Shown in pieces: positions 26,994-30,633 of a stretch of 64,000 nt of DNA (within the stretch, counting starts at the first letter, position 1; every line of letters begins with the position of its first letter). The stretch is from Acanthochlamys bracteata (taxonomy: Eukaryota > Streptophyta > Magnoliopsida > Pandanales > Velloziaceae), in assembly GCA_019914995.1 (NCBI GenBank), contig CM034133.1:7830495-7894494 (forward strand), written 5' to 3'. A program made the translations under genes and the position numbers. The notes under the pieces are model-generated. The model searched no databases. It was not told the DNA's origin and saw only the letters and a program-made list of their open reading frames with translations.

Positions 26994-26995
<2 letters not shown>

Positions 26996-27820
26996 AGGGA
27001 TACATGCATTCATTCTTCTGTAGACACTCCAAGGCACTCCGTTTGCGTGTGCGGCCAGGATTGCATCTCGCACTTGTTAATCTATCTCTTGCGCGCTATC
27101 GGTTTGTTGCATTTTACTTCGTCCGAATTTGTTTTACCAAATCGAAATCTCACAACTTGCACATTACGGTACTGACACATTTACGTATTGTATTCTCTCA
27201 CTTCTTTTTTTCTAAATAATTTCATTAACTCTTAGTTAATCTTATTTAACTTAATTAATTTCATTAATTCTTATTTAACTTAATTCTTTTGTCTTCTTAC
27301 TTCGCAGCTCCCTCTTCGTTCCCGCATCACCTTCCCTCCTCCATCAGCTGTCGACGCTTCACTCAGGGAAGTAGCCACTCAAAGCCGCCGGCAGCCAAAT
27401 CTGAGCCTCTCGACCCGTAGTTCTCTGCAAATAAAAGACCTTCTTAATTTAATCAATTCTCTCTCATTAATAATATTATTAATCTTTTGCTAGTTCCTGT
27501 GTGTTTCACTTTTTAAACTAGTACATATTTTAATTTCTTCAGTTTTTAATCTACCAAGCTTGCTTTCTTCTACGTTCATTATTCCAGTTCCGATTTCATA
27601 TATAGCTTATTTTTTTAAGAAATTAAAGAAACCTAATAAAAAAACAATCTAGATCTTCTCTTCTTCTTCTTCGTGTTTTTAATTGTTCTTCAATATCCAA
27701 TTCCGGTAGTGTACTAGCTAGTGTACTTTTTTTCTTTTATAGGTTTCTTGTTTTAATTTTGAAGCAATATAATGTGATTGTAGATTGATGCGCTATGATT
27801 GATCGTCATATATATCGATC
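26994..27820 (+). repeat. Left terminal inverted repeat (~827 bp)
   Basis: Pairs with 29813-30633 along its whole length, with scattered substitutions and small indels. It contains a GC-richer exon-like block (27308-27431), preceded by TTCGCAG, and ends at the GATC at 27817-27820, after which the two arms diverge abruptly. Confidence 0.9.
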
Positions 27821-27850
27821 TTGTTCTATCTTAAGTTCAGTTATAGTTAT

Positions 27851-27872
27851 TCTCGCGATCCAGTTCGCGAGA
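27851..27872. repeat. Perfect 8-bp stem hairpin TCTCGCGA/TCGCGAGA
   Basis: TCTCGCGA (27851-27858), a 6-nt spacer and TCGCGAGA (27865-27872) form a perfect GC-rich hairpin in the unassigned interior segment just inside the left TIR. No terminator role is implied in a plant genome. Confidence 0.7.
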
Positions 27873-27954
27873 GCAAGAGCAAAACATCTGCAAACGAAAA
27901 AAATGAGATAGAATGCAAAATCACGAACGAAATCCACGCAGAAAATAAATAGTA

Positions 27955-28065
27955 GTTAATTAAGTTAAATTAAATTAATTAAGTTAATAAATAGATTATT
28001 TAAGAGTAATAAGAAAATTAAAGAAAGAAAGGAGAGAGAATACGTAACATTGTCAGAGAAGGACG
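27955..28065 (-). repeat. Partial third copy of TIR sequence inside the element
   Basis: The segment runs from TTAATTAAGTTAAAT-type DNA to GAGAGAATACGTAACATTGTCAG and aligns by eye with 30338-30450 of the right TIR (GAGAGAATACGTAAATATGTCAG) in the same orientation. It ends just before the AHL 3' junction. Confidence 0.65.
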
Positions 28066-28107
28066 GAGTGAGGAAGCAACATTTAAAAAAAAATTTTGAC
28101 CCTCCCG

Positions 28108-29812
28108 ACCCACGGTTCTCTGCAAACGGATTCCCTCCACCGTTCCCACCACTACTAGTCGGTCCACCGCTTTTGTTCCCATTTCCGTTCGTTCCTTGCA
28201 TCGTTCCTGCTGGAGGTTCTTCCTCCTCCAAAGGAAGCCTCTCATAAGCAACGTTGATGAACGAAGTGGCGATAACTATAACTGGACCAAAAGCAATCAG
28301 AACTCCTACGACACTTCCTCCGACAACTTGCCCTTGTCCACCAGCGAGAAAATAGTCAGGCTCGTCGTGCCAGGCGGAGCCAGAGGCGGAAGAAACGATC
28401 CAGACAGCGAAAGAATCTCGAACCTTTCGTGGAGAGTAACAATAGCTCCGGCTGATGCTGGTTAGTAAAGGGTTACATTGGTTACTGTCCCGCTACCGCT
28501 GAGTATGCAAACTCCACGTTGCCTCTGTCGGGCATAAGTCGCTAGGCATTCAAACACATCTCAGCCGCTGCCTCTTTTTGTGCCTTGGGTTGTAGATGTT
28601 GCGAAAGAACGAAACATTCTCTCTATTGCATCTTGGGACTAACCGGCTACCGTTTTTGCCATCTATTACCAGTACTTCCATGGCTATGAGTCTCTCATCA
28701 GAGCCCACGCTAGTGATCCGTCGTTCACCGTAGAGCTACGAGGAGTACCGCCGTTGCAAATCCAAGACCTTCCCTTATTCTACATCATATCCGAAGACGA
28801 TGATTTTTTATATGATATATACCACTTTCAAAGAAGCTCATCTAGGGTTAGACGAGCAGGAGCAAGTTGTTGCAGACCAGAAACTGAAGGTTCTGGTGAA
28901 TACCTTCGAAGCTTTAGAGGCAGACGTCATCACAGCTTTTGAGAAAATGGAGATTGTTCCAATAGGCCCGTCAGTGCCACTGGCTTTTCTTCATGGTTTA
29001 GAAACAACCGACAATTCAGAAGCATATTTGATCAAAGTAGTCGAGAAGCATTACATGGACTGGTTGAACTCAAATCAAGATGGTTCAGTGATTTGCGTTT
29101 CATTTGGAAGCTATGCTGTGTTGAAACAAAACCAGTTAGAAGAGATATCATGAGCGCTAGTGGACAGCGGCCGGCCGTACTTGTGGGTACTGAGAAGCAA
29201 TAACAAATTTGAAGGACTGTAGCTTGTGGAATCAGAACAAGGGTTGAGTGTTGAGTGGTGTTCTCAGGGTAAAGGTGTTATCGCATAAAGCAGTCGACTA
29301 TTTCGTCACGCATTGCGAGTGGAACTTGATGCTTGAGAGCATTTCGTGCGGAACTCCGACAGTATCCGCCCCGTTATGGACAGACCAGATAACGAATGCA
29401 AGATTGGCAGAGAGTTTCTAGGAACTGGAGTGAAGGCGAAAGCGAACGACGGAGGTGTCGTAGAGGCGGCGGAGCTATGACAGTGCTTGAATGTAGTAAT
29501 GGCCGACTTCGAGAATATGTGCCCGAAGAGTGTTCGTACTTTCACGGGTAATTATCACTGGTGGTTTTGGTTTGTCCTTAGAGGCCGGCGGACAGCCACG
29601 GGGACACCGAGCAACCATATCGACAGGACCAGCTCCGTCAACTGTGTTAGTGGGACCGATGCCGCGCTCGAAAGAGTTATCGTTGTTTTCAGGACCGTCA
29701 TCGGAGTCCGCTGCAGCAGAAGAGTGGTGAGCTTGCTGGAGATGAGGTCTGGACGGTGGTGGTGAAGCTGGTGGTGGATGAAATGCGTTGTTCCGAGACC
29801 TAAACCCGCCAT
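28108..29812 (-). pseudogene. Captured AHL (AT-hook motif nuclear-localized) gene copy, split by a UGT fragment
   Basis: AHL proteins are plant nuclear DNA-binding proteins with an AT-hook and a PPC/DUF296 domain. The minus strand from ATG at 29812 encodes MAGLGLGTTHFIHHQ, an acidic SDDGPENND stretch, then KPKPPVIITRES and NTLRAHILEVG up to about 29503. Homology stops there and resumes at about 28577 with [43 protein letters not shown], the [19 protein letters not shown] region (blurred by a frame change) and [12 protein letters not shown], ending at NPFAEN near 28108. Between the two halves sits a UGT fragment in the opposite orientation. Frame changes and stops are present (one before DVFEC), and the AT-hook core, usually RGRPPGSK, reads RGCPPASK. 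It cannot make a working AHL protein. Type I AHL, intronless like that clade. Confidence 0.85.
28578..29504 (+). pseudogene. Captured UDP-glycosyltransferase (UGT75-like) fragment
   Basis: Plus-strand remains of a family-1 glycosyltransferase (transfers UDP-sugar to small molecules), lacking roughly the first 110 residues and the last few tens. Recognisable in order: PWVVDVAKERNI, YYQYFHGYESLIRAHASDPS, PPLQIQDLP, LKVLVNTFEALEADVI, IVPIGPSVPLAFLHG, WLNSNQDGSVICVSFGSYAV, and the PSPG donor-binding box with VEWCSQ, VDYFVTHCEWN, LESISCGTP and WTDQITNA, then GVKAKANDGGVV. The combination is typical of UGT75. At least four in-frame stops (for example after LEEIS) and two frame changes interrupt it, and the PSPG HCGWN reads HCEWN. 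Non-functional. It sits precisely inside the AHL copy, antisense to it. Confidence 0.85.
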
Positions 29813-30633
29813 GATCAATATATATGACGATCAATCACAGCGCATCAATCGACAATCACATTATATTGCTTCAAAATTAAAACAAGAAACTTATAAAAAG
29901 AAAAGAAGTACACTAGCTAATACACTACTGAAATTGGATATTGAAGAACAATTAAAAACACGAAGAAGAAGAAGAGAAGATCTAGATTGTTCTTTTATTA
30001 GGTTTCTTTAATTTCTTGAAAAAAATAAGCTATATATGAAACCGGAGCTGGGATAATGAACGCAGAAGAAAGCAAGCTTGGTAGATTAAAAATGGGAGAA
30101 ATTAAAATATGTACTAGTTTAAAAAATGAAACACACAGGAACTAGTAAAAAATTAATAATATTATTAATAGGAGAGAATTGATTAAATTAAGGTTTTTTC
30201 TTTGCAGAGAACTACGGGTCGAGAGGCTTAGATTCGACTGCCGGCGGCTTTGAGTGGCTGCTTCCCTGAATGAAGCATCGGCAGCTGATGGAGGAGGAAA
30301 GATGATGCGGGAACGAAGAGGGAAGCTGCGAAATAAGAACACAAAAGAATTAAGTTAAATAAGAATTAATGAAATTAATTAAGTTAAATAAGATTAACTA
30401 AGAGTTAATGAAATTGTTTAGAAAAAAAGAAGTGAGAGAATACGTAAATATGTCAGTACCGTAATGTGCGAGTTGTGAAATTTCGGTTTGATAAAATAAA
30501 TTTGGACGAAGTAAAATGCAACAAATCGATAGCATGCAAGAGATAGATTAACAAGTGCAAGATGCAATCCTGACCGCACACGCAACGGAGTGCCTTGGAG
30601 TGTCTACAGGGAAGGAAGTGCATGTATCCCTCC
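29813..30633 (-). repeat. Right terminal inverted repeat (~821 bp)
   Basis: Inverted counterpart of 26994-27820. Its inner edge (29813) directly abuts the ATG of the captured AHL copy (29810-29812 on the minus strand). The exon-like block lies at about 30203-30330. Confidence 0.9.

Follow-up and report, generated by a model that had tools for sequence, protein, structure and literature searches.

Introduction

Pack-MULEs are non-autonomous Mutator-like elements (MULEs) that carry host gene fragments (PMC3310237; PMC8903248; PMC4858842). According to the parts of the published texts examined, on which all comparisons with described systems given here are based, acquired sequence can enter extended terminal inverted repeats (TIRs) of Pack-MULEs and the mechanism of gene acquisition by MULEs is not yet understood (PMC3310237), and putative genes derived from MULEs frequently trace to several parental sequences (PMC4858842). 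The MuTAnT/AutoMuTAnT elements of Medicago truncatula insert into (TA)n, have an end G-run of 0–4 and make a 9-nt duplication at non-(TA)n sites; they possess foldback-like long TIRs and a single mudrA-like transposase open reading frame, and 90% of them are 200–300 bp long (PMC4486113). In the gap-filling/FoSTeST model of animal Pack-TIR elements, fillers are joined by microhomology with a median of 2 bp (PMC8277862). The element studied here occupies positions 26994–30633 of a 64-kb stretch of Acanthochlamys bracteata DNA (C8:7830495–7894494, in a genome of 195.5 Mb), which is called the window below. In this element a fragment of a UGT gene lies inside a copy of an AHL gene, and the nested pair recurs in a family of related elements. 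The case is genuine, and the steps by which a transposon of a known kind took up genes can be read in it with unusual clarity. The window element, which is non-autonomous, probably arose by internal deletion from a long-armed Mutator-like transposon inserting into (TA)n, in which the captures occurred stepwise.

The family shares with MuTAnT its Mutator-like nature, (TA)n targets, a variable G-run, a 9-nt duplication outside (TA)n, long foldback-like TIRs and a single transposase open reading frame. It differs in the TIR sequence that follows the G-run, in size (most fetched family elements measure ~3–11 kb) and in carrying host gene pieces, none of which is reported in the MuTAnT text examined (PMC4486113). 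The window element resembles the Pack-MULEs as a non-autonomous Mutator-like element with host gene fragments. Unlike in the examined Pack-MULE accounts, one gene piece is nested in another, the cassette is also present in both arms of transposase copies, and several capture states survive as separate copies in one genome. Likenesses to the Pack-TIR elements are the short microhomology (1 nt here), the filler at an internal gap (a DUF547 piece here) and recurrent transposition leading to multicopy forms; those elements are from animals, and a nested second capture does not appear in the text examined (PMC8277862). Our literature search, made mostly without subscription papers, found no report combining Pack-MULE with AT-hook, for which absence from print is not claimed; it found only PMC3310237 for Pack-MULE with extended TIR and only PMC4486113 for AutoMuTAnT.

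Results

Structure of the window element

The element consists of the following parts (window positions).

26994–27428, plus strand: original TIR, left copy (~437 bp); begins GGAGGGATA and adjoins a (TA)n run; extent taken from the AHL-free relatives C14 and C16
27429–27823, plus strand: AHL upstream sequence of the left arm, reaching the start codon; inverted partner at ~29810–30203; element positions 436–830 are 93% identical to the donor locus L046
27824–27856, no strand: 33 bp at the arm–arm join; among 54 fetched loci, just the 4 covering the same place contain its first 31 bases, and the 33 bp match no other
27857–28118, minus strand: subterminal transposon sequence common to relatives; contains a degenerate TIR-like repeat (27939–28056, ~75%)
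28119–28572, minus strand: AHL 3' half, from the PCC domain to the Gly-rich tail; 94.1% identical to the C3 AHL gene over 454 bp; 1-bp frameshift near 28350 as in C3
28570–28572, minus strand: GGC, second of the two copies of the 3 bp doubled where UGT is inserted
28573–29501, plus strand: UGT fragment from inside one exon, antisense to AHL; 94.3% identical to the intact UGT gene (C12:704819–705748)
29502–29504, minus strand: GGC, first of the two copies
29502–30203, minus strand: 5' half of AHL (start codon at 29812) together with its upstream region; 91.8% identical to the C3 AHL gene over 709 columns
30204–30633, minus strand: original TIR, right copy; ends in TATCCCTCC beside (TA)n

An earlier reading of the window (the original prediction) had described a transposon with inverted repeats of ~820 bp. 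Inverted ends of ~830 bp were indeed found (element positions 1–830 and 2817–3640, 92.3% identity over 834 columns), but only part of each is TIR, as ~395 bp per side (27429–27823 and its partner) is AHL upstream sequence. The AHL-free relatives C14 and C16 match only element positions ~1–437 (to 450 in one alignment), and ~437 bp was therefore taken as the family's own TIR. Judged from its match to the donor locus, the inner ~395 bp of each inverted end is captured AHL upstream DNA and not original TIR.

The minus-strand AHL copy had been placed between 29812 and ~28108; its start codon lies at 29812 as proposed, whereas the captured stretch ends at 28119. The ~930-bp UGT fragment interrupts AHL in the opposite orientation, where it was expected. 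The identities of both pieces to their donors are far above chance. The UGT was classified by the Pfam domain UDPGT and by its similarity to plant glycosyltransferases of solved structure, with UGT74AN1 and UGT74F2 among the best named chains. At the window joints AHL reads GAAGTCGGC on one side of the UGT and GGCAGCGGC on the other, and the donor AHL reads GAAGTCGGCAGCGGC. Not one AHL base is missing at the split, GGC is doubled, and there is a 1-nt match to UGT on each side; the claim that little or no AHL sequence was lost is thus confirmed.

The right flank of the element (30650–30802) is a common short repeat with at least 78 matches including itself (best 40 of 644 candidates scored), many copies of which are foldback-like inverted pairs ~70 bp apart. 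The window transposon consequently sits beside or inside another repeat.

The family carrying the nested pair

The nested pair was found at least nine times in at least seven elements of this one genome, and the counts of AHL and UGT matches in the genome are lower bounds. What had been taken for a single transposon is thus a family.

One cassette each: window copy, C8b (C8:6887087), C19, C1a (C1:6859923) and C1b (C1:4530388)
Nested pair in both arms: C7a (C7:9850552–9861680) and C7b (C7:6459955–6471142), 11-kb copies with ~3.9-kb arms

The AHL outer edges and the UGT insertion point are common to the copies, except that three C7 arms are shortened by up to ~10 bp at the 3' edge of AHL, that the row of a relic on C12 is cut off and that the UGT of C8b has a gap. 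The 11 AHL rows form one clade beside C3 (support 100/98), with common states that are absent from C3. The single clade, the common edges and the common insertion point indicate one AHL capture and one UGT insertion, followed by amplification. Artefact or chance was rejected, since the nine cassettes lie at separate loci and their joints are largely common. Point changes aside, the left UGT joint is identical in 8/9 cassettes and the right joint in 5/9, the remaining right joints being altered (C19, C1b and C7a among them). No UGT-in-AHL locus outside the TIR family was present among the matches listed, as the original prediction requires.

At the right UGT joint of L011, L018 and L014/L015, as well as in their 3' half of AHL, clusters of small indels in GC-rich stretches vary among the copies and represent either assembly error or real decay.

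A third gene piece of ~855 bp, derived from C17:778112–778965, lies at the arm-deletion join in four copies. It overlaps a DUF547 frame and extends past it; a glutaredoxin frame is nearby, and a DEP match there is below the Pfam cut-off. The presence of this piece in the window copy was rejected (no 15-mers in common), the join holding the 33 bp instead. In two copies the DUF547 piece itself contains a high-copy repeat: ~710 bp with a 4-bp overlap at the ends in C8b (L010 ~2779–3483, C8:6889665–6890369) and ~2.5 kb in C1b (L018 ~3331–5851, C1:4533518–4536038).

Donor genes

The AHL donor is a single contiguous and uninterrupted stretch of 1157 bp (C3:443402–444558) including ~394 bp upstream of the start codon; the captured part comprises the upstream region and most of the coding region. 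The C3 gene and an AHL gene at C5:10394.0k look like a duplicated pair, with another PCC-domain match ~7 kb from each. The C5 gene has an open frame of 305 codons and the C3 gene lacks one base in the PCC domain. This 1-bp deletion aligns in all 11 element AHL rows, clearly in ten and ambiguously in C7aL, which has a neighbouring extra T. Since the same base is missing in the element rows, the AHL gene was most likely already broken by the frameshift when it was captured. The C3 donor branch is short (0.009) despite the frameshift; the end branches of most element copies measure ~0.02–0.05.

At the sites differing between C3 and C5, the window copy is C3-like at 128, C5-like at 12 and neither at 9 (82, 9 and 7, respectively, in the 5' half; 46, 3 and 2 in the 3' half). 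Each of the 11 rows matches C3 far oftener at these sites, and C5 was rejected as the AHL donor. Both halves being C3-like, an origin of the two halves from different AHL paralogues was rejected as well, which agrees with the single interrupted copy proposed originally.

The UGT donor, C12:704819–705748, lies within an open 499-codon frame with a UDPGT domain (gene C12:704386–705882). At least 13 UGT matches were found: the donor, ten pieces of the nine cassettes and two weak matches elsewhere. Neither donor locus shows a match to the element TIRs within 1.5 kb on either side or among the matches listed. With AHL and UGT donors elsewhere, on C3 and C12, the proposed gene capture by a Mutator-like element is borne out.

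Long arms and transposase

AHL upstream sequence is present in both arms of 8/8 two-ended AHL carriers. The AHL length in the far arm is 60–61 bp in four elements, 95 bp in C18, 397 bp in the window copy and the whole cassette in C7a and C7b. C7a and C7b are 92.2% identical over 11.4 kb and have different flanks. The MULE transposase domain PF10551 is located between the arms of both (best 150 of 494 candidates scored), and the C7a frame contains MULE and SWIM domains. In the UGT-free copy C18, AHL is followed by sequence collinear with positions 1923–4777 of C7b, a stretch that stops inside the 415-codon transposase frame of C7b. This collinearity and the AHL in both arms are most simply explained if the short copies were internally deleted from a long-armed transposase form that already held AHL. 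The best reading of the window copy is that it shrank from an 11-kb-type form.

Two transposase-bearing elements without AHL, C5x and C3x, already have arms of ~2.8 kb. In C3x (L023, C3:4916367–4924996) there is an open 774-aa frame with FAR1, MULE and SWIM domains. Jittery-type MULEs have a single MULE transposase frame, and C3x is likened to them by domain content. A reverse course of events would start from an ordinary Pack-MULE, a short element that took AHL between 437-bp TIRs, lengthened its arms later and passed the cassette to the transposase copies afterwards. The varying arm lengths in the family would suit such a course, which we nevertheless regard as quite unlikely, considering the junction in C18 of AHL with the interior of the transposase-bearing form, the AHL in both arms of every two-ended carrier and the long arms of C5x and C3x.

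Class of the element

Our survey of the ends covered 18 fetched elements, of which 5 were left out as unresolved. A TA/AT run of at least 8 bp occurs at both ends in 12 of the 13 elements with resolved ends. C3x, the sole resolved element outside (TA)n, shows a 9-bp target duplication, TTAACTTAT. The G-run before A differs from end to end: some tips are short or altered, as in C1b, and in C7b it reaches GGGGG. These targets, G-rich tips and the duplication in one relative suggest that the elements behave like MuTAnT-type Mutator-like transposons. The MuTAnT TIR GGGGTTTGCTAGAACA (mask from the examined text of PMC4486113) was not found, the family ends reading GGGGAGGGATA or close to it; the family thus operates in the MuTAnT manner without belonging to that sequence family.

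The assignment to the MULEs agrees with the long TIRs (~437 bp in the family, 830 bp inverted in the window copy) and with the transposase domains predicted in the related copies C7a, C7b and C3x. As expected of a Pack-MULE, the window copy is non-autonomous and carries host gene fragments whose donors lie elsewhere (AHL on C3, UGT on C12). The Pack-MULE definition does not cover the C7 copies, which contain transposase sequence.

Discussion

We propose that a transposase-bearing ancestor copied the 1157-bp stretch of the frameshifted AHL gene into one arm beside the 437-bp TIR. A later break in the AHL copy would have been repaired with ~930 bp copied from the UGT gene by synthesis-dependent repair with a template switch, leaving the 3-bp duplication and the 1-nt matches at the joins. 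The captured sequence may then have reached both arms through exchange between these inverted arms. Transposition would have multiplied the structure, after which copies lost internal DNA, the gap being filled by the DUF547 piece in four copies and by 33 bp in the window element. Break repair that copies an ectopic template is consistent with the joints, with the doubling of 3 bp and with filler at the deletion join, as far as the gap-filling model is described in the text examined (PMC8277862). From the common TIRs and the separate (TA)n sites we infer mobilisation in trans by the family transposase. The concatenated tree pairs the arms within elements (C7a 99/96, C7b 82/81), as arm-to-arm exchange would.

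AHL was likely captured first and UGT second, as originally predicted. In the relic on C12 (C12:5166163–5166711 with a TIR fragment), AHL is fused to the TIR, and the donor sequence at the UGT site is exact and uninterrupted, with no scar. With this site the relic resembles the predicted empty AHL relative; C18 likewise lacks UGT, with 19 nt (net) missing precisely at the insertion point. The relic ends where a second inverted pair starts (L027, C12:5160000–5169999; 456 columns, 91.7%) around sequence ~70–74% like MULE interior, and possibly a second MULE inserted there.

Several results weigh against the stepwise scheme or parts of it. The order of AHL before UGT depends on the C12 relic and the uninterrupted donor. 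The relic is truncated, no second end was located, and it makes a poor stand-in for a complete empty relative. The 19-nt loss in C18 may be a scar of UGT loss. The trees are star-like and place the C12 relic outside the UGT carriers and C18 at 76/78 only. A single clade of the nine UGT carriers was neither supported nor rejected by the AU test (p-AU 0.315 and 0.228 in two analyses). In the UGT tree, left arms of different elements pair with each other (96/95); since the trees disagree on arm pairing, either the exchange was patchy or other forces act. The longest transposase frames of the cassette carriers are partial, with 524 codons in C7a and 415 codons (4559–5803) in C7b. Finally, both flanks of the window copy are (TA)n, which makes its target duplication unreadable. 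In the UGT tree the window copy splits off first and the other eight copies group together (95/93); the TIR-only tree was unresolved except for the C7 group.

The same data bear on a one-step chimeric capture, in which a single repair switched from AHL to UGT and back to AHL, and the UGT-free C12 relic and C18 lost UGT later. Boundaries of single origin would be expected in that case too, the 19-nt scar of C18 is readable as a UGT remnant joined via 3-nt matches, and no tree strongly parts the UGT-free copies from the UGT carriers. The C12 relic is scarless, however, and an exact loss of ~930 bp together with one GGC is improbable without conversion from the donor, for which a single site (position 16 in the 3' half) gives a hint. 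We therefore consider the one-step capture unlikely and retain the two successive captures.

The gene copies in the window are decayed, and a coding function is unsupported. The captured AHL upstream region could hold a promoter, but the notion that the AHL or UGT copies were kept as coding sequence, e.g. as a chimeric gene, is extremely improbable and was rejected. The frameshift was inherited from the donor, the window AHL has further stops, and the window UGT is interrupted by stops in all three sense frames. Synonymous counts in the nine UGT copies are near neutral (10 in the window copy against 14.1 expected, standard deviation 2.9); the largest excesses, 28 vs 19.8 (3.8) in C19 and 26 vs 18.9 (3.6) in C8b, amount to about two standard deviations, and part of them may belong to the UGT gene itself.

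An effect on the donors would be compatible with the preferred explanation of the origin of these elements. Read-through hairpins of the long-armed copies might give rise to small RNAs that lower UGT expression. Some 21-mers of the UGT reading frame are present in both arms (71/1477 in C7a, 98/1477 in C7b), and 912/1497 UGT positions lie within a 21-mer that one or more of seven elements match perfectly. For the intact C5 AHL gene, on the other hand, 0/895 21-mers are present in both arms of C7a, and likewise of C7b, and the window copy, with UGT once only, can form no UGT hairpin of its own. We judge such silencing very unlikely. A wider conjecture, hardly more probable, is that the long arms of this (TA)n-targeting MULE, which has a transposase of its own, may serve as a growing store of host gene sequence: pieces would be added to one arm through gap repair, in some cases within earlier pieces, and would be copied to the other arm, forming large hairpins able to give small RNAs against the intact UGT gene.

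Compared with the original prediction, the family, the arms with both cassette and transposase, the broken donor and the third gene are new. One genome holds the donors, an AHL-only copy with the exact site, nested copies, copies with the third piece and transposase copies with the pair in both arms. With all these capture states together, the joints, the order of events and the exchange between arms are directly testable. Half of a 'TIR' can consist of captured gene sequence, a possible source of error for annotation based on TIRs, and a gene that is already broken can still be captured and amplified.

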